Below, piece by piece: positions 23,348 to 32,027 of a stretch of DNA of 64,000 nt; the first letter of the stretch is position 1, and every line of letters begins with the position of its first letter. The position numbers and the translations under genes were made by a program. The notes under the pieces were generated by a model. The model saw only the letters and a list, made by a program, of their open reading frames with translations, searched no databases and was not told the DNA's origin. The stretch lies in NCBI RefSeq assembly GCF_003349955.1, contig NZ_QLKQ01000010.1:1-64000 (forward strand). The letters are read 5' to 3'. This stretch comes from Azospirillum brasilense (GTDB lineage Bacteria; Pseudomonadota; Alphaproteobacteria; Azospirillales; Azospirillaceae).

Positions 23348-24991
23348 ATGTCAGCGCTCACCCGTTCGCCCGCCTGGGAAGCCCTGGCCCGTCACCGCCA
23401 GGACGTTTCGGCCCTCCACATGCGCGACCTGTTCGCCGCCGACGCCGACCGCTTCGACCGCTTCTCCCTGGAAGCCTGCGGCCTGCTGTTCGATTATTCG
23501 AAGAATCGCATCACCGAGGAGACTCGGACCCTTCTGCTCGACCTCGCCCGCCAGCAGGACGTGGAAGGTTGGCGCGACCGCATGTTCGCCGGGGAGCGGA
23601 TCAACATCACCGAGGACCGCGCCGTCCTGCACACCGCGCTGCGCAACCGCTCCAACCGCCCGGTCATGGTGGACGGCCAGGACGTGATGCCGGAGGTGAA
23701 CGCCGTCCTCCACCGGATGGAGCGCTTCGTCCGGCAGGTCCGCGACGGCGCCTGGACCGGCTACACCGGCCACCCGATCACCGACATCGTCAACATCGGC
23801 ATCGGCGGGTCCGACCTCGGCCCGGTGATGGTGACGGAGGCGCTGACCCCCTACCTGCACCCGCAGATCGGCGTGCATTTCGTCTCCAACGTCGACGGCA
23901 CCCACATCAGCGAGACGCTGGAATGGCTGGACCCGGAGACGACGCTGTTCGTCATCGCGTCCAAGACCTTCACCACCCAGGAGACGCTGACCAACGCCCA
24001 CACCGCGCGGCGCTGGTTCCTGGAGAGCGCCGGCGACCCCGCCCATGTCGCCAAGCATTTCGTCGCCGTCTCCACCAACGAGGCCGAGGTGCGCAAGTTC
24101 GGCATCGACCCAGCCAACATGTTCGGCTTCTGGGACTGGGTCGGCGGGCGCTATTCCCTGTGGTCGGCGATCGGGTTGTCCATCGCGCTCGGCATCGGCA
24201 TGGACCGCTTCTACGAGTTGCTGGACGGCGCCCACGCCATGGACGAGCATTTCCGCACCGCGCCGCCGGAGCGCAACATGCCGGTGCTGATGGCGATGCT
24301 CGGCGTCTGGCACGTCAATTTCTGGGGCGCCAAGTCCCACGCCGTGCTGCCCTACGACCAGTACATGCACCGCTTCCCCGCCTATCTCCAGCAGTTGGAC
24401 ATGGAGAGCAACGGCAAGACGGTGGACCGGCAGGGGGCGCGGGTGGATTACGCCACCGGCCCGGTGGTCTTCGGCGAGCCGGGCACCAACGGCCAGCACG
24501 CCTTCTACCAGCTGATCCACCAGGGGACGGAGCTGGTGCCCGCCGACTTCCTGGCCCCGGCGGAGACCCACAACCCCATCGGCGACCACCACCGCATCCT
24601 GCTGTCGAACTTCTTCGCCCAGCCGGAGGCCCTGATGCGCGGCAAGACCGCCGAAGAGGTGCGCGCCGAGATGGCCAAGTCCGGCAAGCCGGCCGAGGCC
24701 ATCGAGCCGCTGGTCCCCCACCGCGTGTTCGAAGGCAACAAGCCGTCCAACAGCATCCTGTTCAAGAAGCTGGACCCGCGCACGCTGGGCGCCCTGATCG
24801 CGCTGTACGAGCACAAGGTGTTCGTCCAGGGCATCGTGTGGGCCATCAACAGCTTCGACCAATGGGGCGTGGAGTTGGGCAAGCAGCTGGCCGGCAAGAT
24901 CCTGCCCGAACTCCAGAACGGCCCGACCGCCGCGCTGGGGCACGACAGCTCGACCAACGGGCTGATCGGCTGGTACCGCAAGCACCGCTGA
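23348..24991 (+). CDS. pgi: glucose-6-phosphate isomerase
   Basis: 547 residues, the usual bacterial length. Family motifs include [38 protein letters not shown], the signature [16 protein letters not shown] and the C-terminal [29 protein letters not shown] upstream supports the ATG at 23348. It interconverts glucose-6-P and fructose-6-P; in azospirilla, which rely on the Entner-Doudoroff route, it works mainly in gluconeogenesis. It appears to be monocistronic. Confidence 0.97.
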
Positions 24992-25085
24992 GCGGCAGGA
25001 CACCGCCTTAAGGTTTTATTGCCAAATGGGAAAAACAACCATAAAATCGTGATCGTGGAATTTCTCCACCGTGAGAGATGATTCG

Positions 25086-25892
25086 ATGGATGTTTTATCT
25101 CCCTTGGCTGGCGCCCCGGCCGTCGCCGCGACGAAAACCACGTCGACGGCCCAGGGCACCGCAGGCAGTCCTGCCGGGTCGGCAACGACCGCCACAGCCA
25201 GCGCGGGTGCCAATGACACGCTATCCCTGAGCCCCCTGGCGGCAAGCCTGAAGGGACCGTCGCTGGACCTGTTCAACAAACTGAAGCAGAACGAGCGCAC
25301 CCTGCTCAGCGGCCTCGTGGACAGCGGCAAGATCACTGGCGACGATGTGAACAACGCGCTGATGGGCAGCCTGAAAATGGCTCGGTCCACGGCCTTCATG
25401 AATGGAGGCCGGATGTTCGAATCCCAGAATCGCGGCCTCTTCGCCCGCGCCGCCACCGTCACTGCGGATGAGATGCGGAAGGCGACGGACGACACGCTGG
25501 CCCGGCGCAAGGAATTGGTTGCGCGGCTGGGAGAATTGGACAAGAACGGCCAGGGTGGCTCCGCCGACTACAGCGAGATCCTGCGCGCTCTTTCCGGAGT
25601 GGAGCCCGGCGCGGGCGCCGATCAACCCAGCGCGGAACCCCACGGCAACAGCCGGGCGACCGCCCATTTGCGCCAGACCCGGCTCTTTTCGCCCTATTAC
25701 ATGAAGTTGGGCGATCCTTTTTTCATCCGCAACGGTGAGGAGGAAGCGGCAAGCAACAAGCTGAAGGAGGCCGGGGTTTCCTTGTCCAGCCTCACGGACG
25801 CCGCCCGCGGCATGGCCGAGGACAACGTGGCGGACATGGTGCAGCAACAGGCGTCGGATAGGGCCGAGATCATGCAGCGGAACGGCGGCTGA
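25086..25892 (+). CDS. hypothetical protein with DTLSLSP motif
   Basis: 268 residues from the ATG at 25086 (GAGAG upstream); a GTG at 25071 is an alternative. The N-terminal 40 residues are Ala/Thr/Gly-rich and end in NDTLSLSPLAASLKG. The rest is helical and charged, including LFNKLKQNERTLLSGLVDSGKITGDDVNNALMG. No signal peptide. A second protein in this window (29655-30497) shares the DT(V/L)SLSP stretch in the same N-terminal context. The family is not recognised. The upstream DNA (25010-25085) is AT-rich. Confidence 0.65.
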   Translation: MDVLSPLAGAPAVAATKTTSTAQGTAGSPAGSATTATASAGANDTLSLSPLAASLKGPSLDLFNKLKQNERTLLSGLVDSGKITGDDVNNALMGSLKMARSTAFMNGGRMFESQNRGLFARAATVTADEMRKATDDTLARRKELVARLGELDKNGQGGSADYSEILRALSGVEPGAGADQPSAEPHGNSRATAHLRQTRLFSPYYMKLGDPFFIRNGEEEAASNKLKEAGVSLSSLTDAARGMAEDNVADMVQQQASDRAEIMQRNGG

Positions 25893-25961
25893 GTCAGCGC
25901 AGCGGGGCGCTCCCGCAGGAAGCCCTTGTGCGGCGCGGCGATCGGGCGTAGGGTGCAGGCC

Positions 25962-26036
25962 ATGAACCCCGTGCGCCTCACCTCTCCCGCCCTCCTGGGG
26001 CGATTTTGGTACCGCTGGTACATTCCGGCGGCATAG
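25962..26036 (+). CDS. aromatic-residue-rich leader peptide, 24 aa
   Basis: The ATG at 25962 opens a short frame ending at TAG 26034-26036. Its C-terminal half reads GRFWYRWYIPAA: Phe15, Trp16, Tyr17, Trp19 and Tyr20, five aromatic residues in six positions. A rho-independent terminator follows 24 bp later. This is the layout of an attenuation leader sensing charged tRNA-Trp and tRNA-Tyr (perhaps Phe). GGGTGCAGG upstream is a modest ribosome-binding site. Confidence 0.75.
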   Translation: MNPVRLTSPALLGRFWYRWYIPAA

Positions 26037-26060
26037 GTATCGCACACCCACGATGCACCC

Positions 26061-26094
26061 AAAGCCGCCCGATCCGAGGCGGCTTTTGTGTTTT
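26061..26094 (+). terminator. attenuator terminator
   Basis: AAAGCCGCC (26061-26069) pairs with GGCGGCTTT (26078-26086) around an 8-nt loop, followed by a T-rich run TTTTGTGTTTT. An alternative helix is available: GGCGGC at 26027-26032, inside the leader ORF, can pair with GCCGCC at 26064-26069 and would break the terminator. CCGCC at 25987-25991 can in turn sequester that strand. This fits a classical 1-2-3-4 attenuator, though the exact competition is only inferred. Confidence 0.75.
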
Positions 26095-26163
26095 CAGCAC
26101 GCGGTGCACGCAAAATCCCCCTGACGGTCGCGGCGGCCTCCCTTACCAACCGGAGGTCCCATC

Positions 26164-26316
26164 ATGTCCGATTTCGATTTCGACGTCGTCACCGGCCCGT
26201 CTCGCGCCAGCTGCCCGGCCACCCCCAGCGAGCCGGAAGCGCCGGAAGACGGCCACCCCGTCGAGCACCTCGATAAACCGGCCTTTCTGGGCGGTTTGGC
26301 CACGGAACGGGGTTGA
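26164..26316 (+). CDS. 50-aa ORF downstream of the attenuator, possibly truncated
   Basis: CGGAGG with good spacing precedes the ATG at 26164. The product starts MSDFDFDVVTGPSRASCPAT, continues Pro/Glu-rich and stops at 26314-26316. Decayed transposon DNA begins close by, so the C-terminal part may be foreign sequence. It does not resemble any aromatic biosynthesis enzyme I know. It could be the remnant 5' end of the gene formerly controlled by the attenuator, or a genuine small protein. Confidence 0.5.
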   Translation: MSDFDFDVVTGPSRASCPATPSEPEAPEDGHPVEHLDKPAFLGGLATERG

Positions 26317-26399
26317 CCCGGTGAGATGCCGGCAAATTTTGGGACTTGATCCCGATTTTGATGCGAGAAGGCGGAAGTATGCGGCGGCTTTGGCGCTGT

Positions 26400-27167
26400 A
26401 CGGGCGCAGTTCGCCCCTCAAGCCTGATCAGGCGTCGGAAATTGTCGGCTAGGTTGGCGAGGCCGATCTTCACCGTCGCGCGACCCAGGCCGATGGTGCG
26501 GATGAACAGCCCCATGCGCATCTTCTGGTCGGCGAACACATGCGCGACGGCCGAGTGCACCGCCGAGCGGGTACGGTTGGCGTGCTGGTGCGACCCCGCC
26601 CCTTTCACCGTCCAGCGCGCCTGCGTGCCCTTCTGGCGCGCCTTGGCCGGTGGCCAGGGCGGGTCTTCACCGTCACGGATCTGGCGCTTCTCCTCCCGGG
26701 TCAGCCGCTGCCGGGGCGCTTCCACGATGGGGCGTCGATGATCCGGCCGCCCAGCGCGAAGCATCCACGCTCCTTCAAGTCCGCGTCGAAGCGGGCGAAC
26801 AGCCCCTCCATCGCTCCCGCCGTGACCAGCGCCTCGCGGAACAGCCGGATCGTCGTCCGATCCTGAACCCGGTCGCCCAATCCCAGCCCGAGGAACCGCA
26901 TGAACGACAGCCGGTCGCGAACCTGATACTCCGCCTGCTCGTCCGACAGTCCGTACAGCGCCTGGAGCACCAGGATCTTGAGCATCATCACCGCGTCCAG
27001 TGGCGGCCGACCACCCCAGGAGCGATCCGTGCGCCCCAAGGCCGCGTCCAGCGTCGGACGGAAAACCTCGAAGTCCACCACCGACGACAGGGTTCCAGCG
27101 GATCACCACTCTTGCTCAGTTCCGTGTAGCGATCCTGAAGATCGAACAGCCCAGCTTGACCGGCCAT
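26400..27167 (-). pseudogene. decayed IS5-family transposase
   Basis: Starts at 27167 (MAGQAGLFDLQDRYTELSKS) after CGGGAGC. A 1-nt deletion near 27093 shifts the frame to VVDFEVFRPTLDAALGRTDR and DAVMMLKILVLQALYGLSDE. A second 1-nt deletion near 26730 shifts it again to IVEAPRQRLTREEKRQIRDG. After ARWTVKG roughly 100 catalytic-core residues are missing, and the sequence resumes at VAHVFADQKMRMGLFIRTIG and ends near LIRLEGRTAP. Terminal inverted repeats could not be located by eye. Two frameshifts and an internal deletion make it non-functional. Confidence 0.85.
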
Positions 27168-27244
27168 GCTCCCGCCCCCCGCCTTCAGAACAAGGGAATC
27201 ACCAGAACGCCGAACACACCACAGTGTTTCGAGGCATTCCATTG

Positions 27245-27670
27245 ACAGCGCTGACGTGCAAAGAATTCCGTTTTGGGGTTAACTCGAGATTGGCAGATGA
27301 AATCGTGTGTGAAGCCCGCTTCTGCACCGGGCAGTGCGGTTGCTCACAGGGAAGGGCTCAATCACGCATGACGATCTGTTGCCGCCGCTCGATTTGGTTG
27401 GCGCTTCCCCGTCATTCCAGCCAGCAGGCTGGCCGTTGCAGATAAATCCCTTTGCCTATCGGCCCGTTGGCGGGGCACTCGCCGATCATTCTCATGATGG
27501 CTTGCTCCCTTCGTCGCGCCGCCCGTTTCATCGCGATCTGCGGCGAGAGGAGGCCGGTCAGCGGTCATCCAATGAGTGCTGGCGCGACGCCGAAGCGGGC
27601 CGTCTCCGGGTCAGTCTTATTGTGGTTTCAGGGTAAATTCGTGTGTGGTTCAGGGGCAGTCTATCTGTGG
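27245..27670. other. gene-poor stretch with mobile-element debris
   Basis: I see no convincing gene here. Near the right end the motif TGTGGTTTCAGGG (27619-27631) is followed by TGTGGTTCAGGGG and then TGTGGTCC, about 20-21 bp apart. Such multiple short direct repeats are typical of IS21-type element ends, which is inference. A 27-codon minus-strand ORF beginning MRMIGECPANG has a good GAAGGGAG site but no recognisable function. Confidence 0.4.
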
Positions 27671-27679
27671 TCCGACAGG

Positions 27680-29578
27680 CTAACGGCGCCCGAACAGTCG
27701 TTCGATGTCGGACAGCTTCAGTTCGACATAGGTCGGGCGACCGTGGTTGCACTGACCGCTGTGCGGAGTCGCCTCCATCTGGCGCAGCAGGGCGTTCATC
27801 TCCTCGATCCCGAGCGATCGCCCGGCGCGGACGGAGCCGTGGCAAGCCATGGTCCCGCACACGTCCTCCAGCCGCTCCTTCAGCGACAGCGCGTCGCCCA
27901 ACTCGGCCAACTCCTCGGCAAGGTCGCGGATGAGGCTTTTGACGTCGCTCTGGCCCAGCAGCGCCGGGACTTCGCGCACCAGGATGCAGCCGGGACCGAA
28001 GCCTTCCACCGCCAGCCCCAACTCCGCCAGTTCCGCGGCGCGGCCCAGCAGACGGTTTGCGGACGGCTCGTCCAATTCCACCAATTCCGGGATCAGCAGG
28101 GCCTGCCGCTTCACCCCGCCCTCCAGGAGGGCGGTCTTCATGCGTTCGTAGACCAGCCGCTCGTGGGCGGCGTGCTGGTCGACGATGACGATGCCTTCGC
28201 TGGTCTGGGCGACGATGTAGGTGTTGTGGACCTGGGCGCGGGCGGCCCCCAGCGGGTGACTGTCCAGCGGCGGCGCGGCGGCGGCCTGCGCCGTGTATTC
28301 CGGCGGGCGGGCGGCGGGCGCGGCCTGCCAGCCGGCGAGGCGGCCCTGCAAGGGCGGCAGCGGCGGCTGATGGGGCGCCTGGAAGGCGGTCGCCCGGTCG
28401 GCCAGCCCGCGCGGCACGACGGAGCCGTAGCCGCCGCCCCACGACTGCGCCGGCTGGTGCCCCGGGCCGCCGTAGGGCAGAGGAGAGGGCGACGGCATGG
28501 TTCCGTCCGCGTCCACCGCGCTGCTCTCCGGGCGCAGCGCCCCCAGCGTCGCCAGCCCCACGGTGGTCGACGCGCGGTGCCCGGCCTCGGCCAGCGCGTG
28601 CTTGAGCGCCCCGACGATCAGCCCGCGCACCAGCCCCTGGTCGCGGAAACGCACCTCCGCCTTGGCGGGGTGGACGTTCACGTCCACCTCCTGCGGGTCG
28701 AGGTCGAGGAACAGGGCGAGCATGGGGTGGCGGTCGCGCGGCAGGAAGTCGGCGTAGGCCGCCCGCACCGCGCCGACCATCAGCTTGTCCCGCACCGGTC
28801 GGCCGTTGACGAACAGATGCTGGTGGCGGGCCGTGGGGCGGTGCAGGGTGGGCAGGCCGATCCAGCCGGCGAGCGTCACCCCCTCGCGCGCCGCCTGCAC
28901 CGGCACGGCGTTGTCCTGGAAGTCGCGGCCCATCAGGGCGCCCAGCCGGGTCAGCCGGGCGTCGAGCAGGTCGCCCTGCGCCGCCGACAGACGCAGCGTC
29001 GAACGCCCTTCGCCGTCCAGCGTGAAGGCCACGCCGGGATGGGCCATGGCCAGCCGTTCGATGCAGTCGCCGATGTGGTCGAACTCGGTCCGCGCGGCCT
29101 TGAGGAACTTCAGGCGGGCGGGCACGGCGGCGAACAGGTCGCGCACCTCGACACGGGTGCCCTGGGCCAGCGCGGCGGGCTGCGGCGCGCCCTTCAGGCC
29201 GGCGTCCACGGTCAGCGCCCAGGCGCTGTCGGCGCCGCGCGGGCGGCTGGTCAGGGTCAGGCGGCTGACCGCCCCGATGGAGGGCAGCGCCTCTCCCCGG
29301 AAGCCCAGCGAGCGGATGTCCAGCAGGTCGTCCGACGGCAGCTTGGAGGTGGCATGGCGCTCCACGGCGAGCGCCAACTCGTCCGGCCCCATGCCGCAGC
29401 CGTCGTCGGTGATGGTGATGAGCGATTTCCCGCCGTCGCGCACCACCACGTCGATGCGGGTGGCCCCGGCGTCGATGGCGTTCTCCACCAGTTCCTTGAC
29501 GGCGGCGGCGGGCCGCTCGATCACCTCGCCGGCGGCGATTCGGTTGACGAGCGTGTCGGGCAGCATACGGATCGGCAT
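27680..29578 (-). CDS. mutL: DNA mismatch repair protein MutL
   Basis: 632 residues from [20 protein letters not shown] at 29578. The N-terminal GHKL ATPase has [21 protein letters not shown] and [13 protein letters not shown] Pro/Ala-rich linker follows (about residues 340-440). The C-terminal domain has the endonuclease motif [12 protein letters not shown] (DQHAx2Ex4E) and the zinc-site-like [13 protein letters not shown]. This MutL is therefore of the nicking type, unlike E. coli MutL. It is the first intact gene after the mobile debris. The ATG at 29617 is less likely. Confidence 0.96.
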
Positions 29579-30497: not shown

Positions 30498-30821
30498 GCG
30501 CGCTTTCCCCCGCTTTCCGATGGAAGGGGCTTCGAACTGCATCCCCAGGTGGTTGTCGATAATGCCGTATGCGGTCGCGGTTGTCCATGCGGCGGAACGG
30601 TCCGGCCGGGCTGCGGGCGCCCGACCCGCTTCGTCCCTTCGGGCAATGAGTCGAGGGACGGCGCATTGCTGTGTTTAGTGAAAAATAAAGACGGAAATTT
30701 CGCTGTCATCTCCAGGATATCTTTACAGACATGCCAATGCATGTGGATGAACAAGACGTTTGAATATTCTTTTTTCCTGAGGAAATCTGCCGTCTCATCC
30801 AATTTTCTTTGGGAGAGGTCC

Positions 30822-32027
30822 ATGTCCGATACCCCCGTCACCTACGCCGCGCCGGTCGATGTTCCGGTGGCCCGGCAGCCCTTCGGCCTGGAGGGCTACA
30901 GCAACTCCCTCAACGTCACCATCGGCACGCCGAGCGGTCTTCTGCATGAGGTGCAGGTGGACACCGGTTCGACCGGCGTCGTCATTCCCGCAACGCTGCT
31001 GATGGTCGACGGCGACACGTCGAAGGGGCTGGTCGCGGGGGTGGTATCGCTCGGGCCGGCGCAGATCACCTATCACCCGTCGGGCAACACCCTGGCCGGT
31101 TGCCTCTATCTCGTGCCCAGCCTGGCGATCGGCGCGTCGCTGAACGACTCGAAGCAGGTCGTCTCGGTCTGCGAGGCCGGGCCGCTGGTGGTCTTCGGCG
31201 CGCAGTATGCCGGCAACACCGCCACGCCCGATGTCCAGAACCCGGTCGATCCGGGCATGGGCATGATGGGCGTCGGCTTCGGCCGTCCGGCGCTGAGCTA
31301 CACCGCGAACGCCGGCCAGTCCGATCAGGTCGTCTACACGCTGAGCAATCCGTTCCTGTCGGCGTCGGTGAACGGCCAGCCGATCTACCCGTCCTATCTG
31401 CTGTCCTCGGCGGGGAGCGGGGCGAGCGGCTACATCACGCTGGGCGTGACGACCGCGGCGTTCACGGCCAGCCCCTTCAACGGCCAGACCGTCGCGCTGA
31501 CCTCGGCCAAACCGCCGGTCACCGCCAACGTCACCAACGGCTGCAACTGCGCCCCGGCGTCGGGCACGCCCTGGCCGGCGGCGCCGACCCAGCCCTATTG
31601 GCTGACCGGCCCGGCGACCATCACCATCAGCACGGTCAACGACGCGCGGCCGCTCAAGGCCACCCTGCTGCTCGACAGCGGGGTCACCGGGGCGATGATG
31701 AGCGTTCCCCAGGCGAAGGCCTGGACGGCCAATCTCGGCGGGGCGGAGATCACCGTCGCCGTGCCGAACGGGTCCAGCCCCGACGCGGAACCGGTGATGA
31801 CCTACAGCTTCGCCATGTCCAGCGCAGCCCCGGTCAAGGGCATCTTCGGCATCGACACCACGCTGTCCACCGCGGCGGCCCCGGCGTCGCTGGAGCCGGT
31901 CTTGCCGGACGCTGACATCGCCTTCGTCAACACGGGAATCAACCCGCTGCTGGCCTACAACTACTTCTTCGACGCGCAGCTGGGCCAAGTTGGCTTCGCC
32001 ACCACAGCTGCGGTCACGCTGCCGTAA
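30822..32027 (+). CDS. bilobed pepsin-like aspartic peptidase
   Basis: 401 residues. There are two aspartic-protease triads, one per lobe: Asp47 in VDTGSTGVVIP and Asp285 in LLDSGVTGAMM. They are 238 residues apart, as in pepsins. Two copies plus about 400 residues argue for a bilobed enzyme rather than a retropepsin. Bacterial pepsin homologues are known but rare (for example shewasin). There is no N-terminal signal peptide, so it is cytosolic or leaves by a non-Sec route. GGGAGAGG sets the ATG at 30822. The 280 bp upstream are AT-rich compared with the surroundings, hinting at transfer. Confidence 0.75.
   Translation: MSDTPVTYAAPVDVPVARQPFGLEGYSNSLNVTIGTPSGLLHEVQVDTGSTGVVIPATLLMVDGDTSKGLVAGVVSLGPAQITYHPSGNTLAGCLYLVPSLAIGASLNDSKQVVSVCEAGPLVVFGAQYAGNTATPDVQNPVDPGMGMMGVGFGRPALSYTANAGQSDQVVYTLSNPFLSASVNGQPIYPSYLLSSAGSGASGYITLGVTTAAFTASPFNGQTVALTSAKPPVTANVTNGCNCAPASGTPWPAAPTQPYWLTGPATITISTVNDARPLKATLLLDSGVTGAMMSVPQAKAWTANLGGAEITVAVPNGSSPDAEPVMTYSFAMSSAAPVKGIFGIDTTLSTAAAPASLEPVLPDADIAFVNTGINPLLAYNYFFDAQLGQVGFATTAAVTLP

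Follow-up and report, generated by a model that had tools for sequence, protein, structure and literature searches.

A predicted attenuator with codons for three aromatic amino acids precedes a conserved small protein gene in Azospirillum

The window analysed here, a stretch of 64,000 nucleotides of Azospirillum brasilense DNA, carries a well-supported candidate for a trp-type attenuator, followed by the gene of a small protein (ORF2). Comparison of loci indicates that this attenuator is old and widespread; it is predicted to sense three aromatic amino acids and to control a conserved, undescribed small protein. As the best explanation of the whole, we consider it probable that the attenuator and the controlled small gene descend from a leader-ORF2-aroG2 operon, aroG2 being a gene for class II DAHP synthase, and that ORF2 acts in trans on the entry into the shikimate pathway; in this explanation we infer the stalling, the read-through, the ancestry and the action and target of ORF2. 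If it holds, the unit represents a widespread alphaproteobacterial attenuator whose predicted stall site has one codon for each aromatic amino acid and which, in relatives, is linked to the enzyme that opens the shared aromatic pathway, together with an undescribed small protein family; it would also mean that the loss of an enzyme gene can be outlasted by its regulatory RNA and small first cistron.

Aromatic metabolism is important in Azospirillum, a plant-growth bacterium, for example for the production of auxin from Trp. The trp and pheA attenuators of E. coli are ribosome mediated; proteobacterial attenuators have reportedly been surveyed in an older comparative study, and there is said to be work on trpE(G) of A. 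brasilense. Our literature search, with partial coverage of subscription journals, found no paper with the peptide motifs or, judged by title and the start of the abstract, with this attenuator. A term search of PMC2965389 returned nothing matching.

The unit in the window and its distribution

An earlier note, made from the letters of the window, had described an aromatic attenuator at this site; the features that we located are collected in Table 1. The 24-codon leader with FWYRWY near its end was borne out, and so was the competing helix, in which GGCGGC (26027-26032) is able to pair with GCCGCC (26064-26069) as antiterminator 2:3. The proposed terminator stood with regard to its stem of 9 pairs (loop of 8), but its T-run turned out to be interrupted. 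An upstream helix of CCGCTGG (26012-26018) with CCGGCGG (26025-26031), over the Arg-Trp codons, completes the 1-2-3-4 set. The RNA from 25962 to 26092 folds with -52.9 kcal/mol (z -2.8), a value equalled by 0 of 200 shuffles. The terminator scan alone is weak evidence, because it found 7 terminator-like sites on both strands of 24000-28000, where 2.9 were expected. The marks of an attenuator that we found are a short leader ORF rich in codons for the regulatory amino acids (read from the sequence), mutually exclusive antiterminator and terminator helices (complementarity and modelling) and an intrinsic terminator, with a broken T run, before the target. As for a target that makes the sensed amino acids, the downstream gene of the window is ORF2, and aroG2 fills this role in some relatives. 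Taken together, the conserved leader, the exclusive helices and the terminator support the aromatic attenuator of the note.

Table 1. Features of the predicted attenuator unit and its surroundings (positions in the window)
Feature	Position	Strand	Basis or remark
Promoter-like element TTGTGC-N17-TAGGGT	25926..25954	+	ends 7 nt 5' of leader ATG; weak, 6/12
Leader peptide MNPVRLTSPALLGRFWYRWYIPAA, 24 codons, ...RFWYRWYIPAA	25962..26036	+	conservation; pN/pS 0.19 (13 of 17 close relatives)
Leader ATG; leader stop TAG	25962; 26034-26036	+	sequence
Codons Phe15-Trp16-Tyr17 (TTT TGG TAC), predicted stall sites freeing the antiterminator	26004..26012	+	folding model, assumed ribosome footprint
Strand 1, CCGCTGG	26012..26018	+	complementarity, alignment, folding
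Strand 2, CCGGCGGC, partner of 1 or 3	26025..26032	+	complementarity, alignment
Strand 3, AAAGCCGCC, partner of 2 or 4	26061..26069	+	terminator scan, alignment
Strand 4, GGCGGCTTT, terminator arm	26078..26086	+	terminator scan, alignment
Terminator T tract, interrupted (TTTTGTGTTTT)	26084..26094	+	sequence
Hairpin GGCCTCC/GGAGGTC, could mask the ORF2 ribosome-binding site	26135..26158	+	suggestive
ORF2 small protein MSDFDFDVVTGPSRASCPATPSEPEAPEDGHPVEHLDKPAFLGGLATERG*, 50 codons	26164..26316	+	sequence, conservation
IS5-like transposase remnant (DUF772 domain), outside the unit	26704..27081	-	domain match

A motif TTG-N16-19-TA ending 6 to 10 nt before a leader ATG was found in 60 of 61 leaders, against 0.01 in a shuffled control; the element of the window is absent from the list of a stricter scan. 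Since promoter elements lie just 5' of the leader ATG, the mRNA is probably leaderless, with transcription probably starting at or beside this ATG.

The note had regarded as odd that the downstream ORF is only 50 codons long and runs into a decayed IS5 copy. Both the size of ORF2 and the IS remnant are real, but the small size is not caused by the IS, as ORF2 has 31 to 66 codons over 43 Azospirillum genomes. In the window, the final 18 codons of ORF2 are of another kind than those of close relatives and adjoin the IS remnant, and the start is intact. Recent orphaning by the IS was ruled out: close relatives with different downstream DNA carry the same leader-ORF2 unit. A mobile or phage element was rejected as well, with no phage match and a single plasmid record (A. 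thermophilum). Between 26260 and 32027, the IS5-like remnant is followed by mutL and then by a gene (30750-32027) that has no Pfam match and, by eye, resembles the ORF2-adjacent gene of close relatives; this region seems to be rearranged in this genome.

Non-conservation of the leader frame in relatives had been named as what would speak against the attenuator, and the frame is conserved. A search for the leader peptide in 82 genomes of the family gave matches at E<1e-5 in 17, which belong to one genus, and in an alignment of these 17 genomes, leader, terminator and the first ORF2 codons are almost unchanged. Weak ORF2-like matches in other Azospirillum led to a diverged form with leader MQQMLSIAS.GRSRYFGRWFRSAA*, terminator and ORF2 MFDFDVVTGPTQPP... 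A DNA pattern for ORF2 matched 48 of the 82 genomes; of 45 Azospirillum genomes, 43 have ORF2, while at two mismatches the pattern did not match G014 and G029, and the unit was also found in G001, G052 and G057. The matches in G055 and G070 were rejected as units, falling in unrelated longer frames without leader. The leader and terminator model fits 42 of the 43 Azospirillum loci with ORF2; in the remaining one (L176 of G030), the contig begins at ORF2 and the leader is missing.

A scan of a named genome collection gave 63 pattern stretches, 62 of which are units; the leader and terminator model fits 61 of the units, mostly not as independent proof, because 46 of these loci had trained the model (R1). 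A chance match in an 895-residue frame (L208) was excluded from the unit counts; L186 and L201 are truncated at the 5' end, L213, with ORF2 farther off, was omitted from alignment A4 and from the binding-site count, and L179 was omitted from alignment A5. Holders of the unit are Azospirillum, Arenibaculum, Telmatospirillum, Rhodopila, Stella, many Acetobacteraceae, Rhodospirillales MAGs and two Sphingomonas. The two Sphingomonas leaders (L181, L194) have a longer end, ..RFWYRWY(I/K)LAVPG..RD*, with the stop codon farther downstream, and these units possibly arose by horizontal transfer. At L179 (6445-7242), ORF2 continues in frame into an SBP_bac_11 solute-binding domain, which is either a natural fusion or due to a lost stop codon. 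When 398 genomes of the phylum were scanned, five matched at E<=1e-6: two strongly, both alphaproteobacterial, and three weakly. Spread beyond the Alphaproteobacteria was dismissed, as the three weak matches are other elements, which we take to be lysS-type terminators (L316, L317) and an ilv-type leader (L318). One common downstream gene for the unit is contradicted by the varied neighbours of the 62 loci, where the commonest gene has no Pfam match (15 loci) and HutD comes next (14), in Azospirillum only; outside Azospirillum, P450, luciferase-like, purH or methyltransferase genes lie near the unit. In the annotated record of A. thermophilum, ORF2 is a hypothetical protein and the leader is not annotated. 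The 64 kb window gave no match at gathering scores to Rfam 15, T-box included.

Linkage to class II DAHP synthase

Model R1 was run over 385 Alphaproteobacteria and matched 52 genomes at E<=0.01, mostly weakly; the strong matches and some of the weak ones were inspected. There were eleven strong matches (58 bits or more), including two in Azospirillum. Of the nine from other bacteria, five have an FDFDV ORF2 next to the leader and terminator, on the downstream side (G118, G342, G418, G245, G261); in G257, G428, G352 and G202, the leader lies directly 5' of a gene with a class II DAHP synthase start, which PF01474 confirmed (the copy of G202 is split over two frames and was left as is). Five of seven genomes in the order of G257 have the leader, G462 and G463 being new cases in which aroG2 was identified by the conserved gene start behind the leader. 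The order leader-ORF2-aroG2 is found in G057 (L183), in an Acetobacteraceae MAG (L160) and in a MAG filed under Nitrosovibrio (L177); the end of ORF2 and the beginning of aroG2 overlap, stop with start, in L183 and L177, and a gap of six bases separates them in L160. The aroG1 of the L177 genome groups with Acetobacteraceae, and this Nitrosovibrio MAG contig is probably misbinned. Altogether, the leader is linked to class II DAHP synthase in nine genomes, in three via ORF2 and in six directly. The idea that mixed Phe, Trp and Tyr codons would suit a step of the shared pathway thereby gained support.

A second, unlinked DAHP synthase copy is present in all seven linked genomes searched with PF01474, and among 28 genomes compared, two DAHP synthase genes were seen solely in the two genomes that have a linked copy (the gene of G469, seen in two pieces, was counted as one). 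Four sampled Azospirillum (G000, G011, G034, G032) have one gene each. R1 found no leader at 43 unlinked aroG loci, with about 1.5 kb upstream covered. In trees of DAHP synthases, linked and unlinked copies are split by one branch, with support of 98/99 (22 rows) and 96/96 (47 rows: 6 linked, 41 unlinked); an earlier tree, which included a broken row and whose ends were badly trimmed, had given 82/94. The broken aroG of L219 was omitted from the 22- and 47-row trees, and a near copy (L247) and a split one (L308) from the latter. These trees are unrooted and alone cannot separate loss from capture.

Since ORF2-only units are widespread and the trees show a single separation, we favour an old leader-ORF2-aroG2 operon from which aroG2 was lost several times. 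The ancestor would have been an attenuated operon, from which aroG2 was probably lost long ago in Azospirillum, leader and ORF2 being retained along with the unattenuated aroG1 in the Azospirillum genomes checked. Alternatively, the small protein may be the original target and aroG2 captured by the unit in a few lineages, not lost in many. The linkage is indeed confined to few lineages and, in the loci seen, greatly outnumbered by ORF2-only units, but on the unrooted trees the linked copies group apart from the unlinked ones, which fits one old linkage; we regard capture as somewhat unlikely. With an old loss, the claim of the earlier note that the original target is lost holds in part: the partner gene is absent here and its old loss is probable, but the attenuator was not recently orphaned, as leader and ORF2 are conserved through the genus and in other groups. 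Comparison with other Azospirillum for an intact gene after the leader yielded the conserved small ORF2 but no aroG2 in the unit. The choice between an orphaned attenuator and control of an undescribed small protein was thus not exclusive, both being partly true.

The ORF2 small protein

ORF2 starts with FDFDV(V/I)TGP, followed by a loose, variable tail rich in Pro and Ala; f38 genomes have FDFDVI(S/G)D instead. The constancy of the motif over the 63 stretches is partly circular, as the nine-residue motif had collected them. Neither ORF2 nor the leader has a Pfam or NCBIfam domain match. Selection was calculated for 13 of the 17 clade-1 relatives, picked by leader and not by ORF2: codons 2 to 13 have pN 0 and pS 0.036, and the tail has pN/pS 0.36 with pS 0.19. 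Because pS is low at the start too, the constraint there may partly be on the RNA. The ribosome-binding site of ORF2 is mostly paired in 56 of 63 sequences (shuffled control 0.54; mean fold z only -0.8); the 63 were taken from 69 loci, repeats and loci without pattern or without ATG being omitted. From this modelling, the hairpin over the binding site may add a second, translational layer of control. A consensus fold of the ORF2 start region was uninformative. In loci that lack ORF2, a hairpin of this kind can be placed by eye before aroG2.

Two other readings assign ORF2 a lesser role. One takes the leader RNA and leader peptide as the working products, as with rnTrpL and peTrpL of S. meliloti, and ORF2 as secondary. 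Conservation of leader peptide and RNA, the released RNA of about 130 nt that is expected and the likely leaderless start, for which there is precedent in PMC7298713, would agree with it, but ORF2 stays with the leader in Azospirillum, the amino acids of its first codons are the same throughout the 13 relatives, and the leader keeps its three aromatics although its end varies, as befits a codon sensor. We consider this reading improbable. We give a still smaller chance to ORF2 being a mere coupling cistron for aroG2 translation and a slowly decaying relic in Azospirillum. The overlap of ORF2 stop and aroG2 start in L183 and L177, the loose tail and the six genomes with aroG2 directly behind the leader are in keeping with coupling; against it stand the pN of 0 at the ORF2 start and its presence in 43 of 45 genomes, both without a nearby aroG2, and a relic would hardly be expected to retain nine residues from Azospirillum to Sphingomonas.

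We therefore return to ORF2 as most likely a starvation-induced small protein that would act in trans on shikimate pathway entry. AroG1 is the first candidate target, and the connection between the two has candidate status. Tentatively, and with less than even confidence, the FDFDV(V/I)TGP proteins may be a new family of small regulators induced by aromatic starvation through a leader that reads Phe-, Trp- and Tyr-tRNAs at once, acting on class II DAHP synthase and outliving the attenuated enzyme gene across Rhodospirillales-type bacteria.

Leader codons, switching and comparison with known systems

Phe, Trp and Tyr codons occur together in 67 of 69 leaders, which are not independent, many being from close relatives; L154 and L211 have no Trp. 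The leaders end in R-[FY]-[WFYS]-x-R-[WR]-[YF]-x-P-A-A or nearly so, with 37 different 11-residue ends among the 69; variants near the end are RFWYRWY, RYFGRWF, RFYGRWF and RYWRRWF. Sensing of the nascent peptide, as by a TnaC-like arrest peptide, or of a free aromatic amino acid, and not of tRNA charging, would be in line with the R-W-[YF]-x-P-A-A* conserved right before the stop codon in most leaders, but is very doubtful: Arg stands in place of the second Trp in L154, L167, L170, L193 and L200, where a T to C change makes a U-G pair of helix 1:2 a C-G pair, and residues vary among F, W and Y, which better matches codon sensing.

The four strands hardly vary. Pairing of 1:2 and 3:4 is intact in 98.7% of 690 cells, compared to 25-55% when slid by 1-3 columns, and 98.7 is also the value for column shuffles, so there is no excess; pair 2:3 forms in 275 of 276 cells. 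Changes in helix 1:2 are mostly G-U exchanges. No compensatory change was found in 1:2 or 3:4, and no pair was altered on both sides; with two partners for each strand, this neither helps nor hurts the attenuator much.

Stalling was modelled on the window RNA with an assumed ribosome footprint of the A site plus 11 nt. With RNA up to 26076, the 2:3 fold has -19.4 kcal/mol when the ribosome is at F15, W16 or Y17, a stall at W20 weakens it to -14.7 kcal/mol, and with a ribosome at Y21 or the stop codon there is no 2:3; only stalls at the first three codons are predicted to leave the full antiterminator. In RNA of this length, 2:3 is favoured over 1:2 even when no ribosome is on it. After strand 4 has been made, every stalled case has the terminator as its more stable fold (-23.9 to -25.1 kcal/mol). 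The switch must be kinetic, because the terminator outcompetes 2:3 as soon as strand 4 is made and 2:3 also forms without a ribosome. As we envisage it, with Phe-, Trp- and Tyr-tRNA charged, the ribosome would reach the stop codon and cover strand 2, and 3:4 would end transcription. If any aromatic tRNA were short, the ribosome would wait at Phe15, Trp16 or Tyr17 and cover strand 1; 2:3 would then form first and RNA polymerase would continue into ORF2.

Other aromatic leaders came up beside the unit. L231 and L235 (about 1500-2093), from another alphaproteobacterial family, are weak R1 matches with a leader ..NAWYFTPLT* and a GCCGCC/GGCGGC terminator, followed by a GNAT acetyltransferase (Pfam on the L231 copy). 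L227 (minus strand, before 1169-1432) and L233 (before 1663-1920) have leaders ..WYFTLHT* and ..WYFTLLT* plus a terminator before a protein of 86-88 residues with a sub-cut-off match to S4 / TyrRS C-terminal domains. By eye, no separate leader was seen before the genome's own trpE at L311.

With the trp-type attenuators (E. coli trp and pheA, S. meliloti trpL-trpE(G)), the unit shares a short leader with regulatory aromatic codons and exclusive helices. It differs in that the Azospirillum leader groups codons of all three aromatic amino acids and in that the target is a small protein instead of trpE; in some relatives, a class II DAHP synthase gene follows that of the small protein or takes its position. 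In S. meliloti, tandem Trp codons precede trpE(G), whereas here mixed F/W/Y codons are followed by ORF2. The rnTrpL RNA of S. meliloti starts at the leader ATG, according to PMC7298713, as we propose for the Azospirillum unit. Class II DAHP synthase (PF01474), found behind leader or leader-ORF2 in the nine genomes, is in contrast absent from the Azospirillum unit, and the only copy of the window's genome (G000:C94) is without such a leader. Anti-TRAP of B. subtilis (rtpA/yczA) is described in PMC11255114 as a small protein that is induced by a shortage of charged aromatic tRNA, controls the pathway in trans and is also controlled in translation. Anti-TRAP is a T-box-controlled zinc protein, whereas we find a stalling leader without Rfam match, and the zinc-binding cysteines have no counterpart in ORF2, which has a single Cys in the window and none in several relatives. 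What the leader-ORF2 unit would share with anti-TRAP is the logic of a two-step control (PMC11255114), not the sequence.
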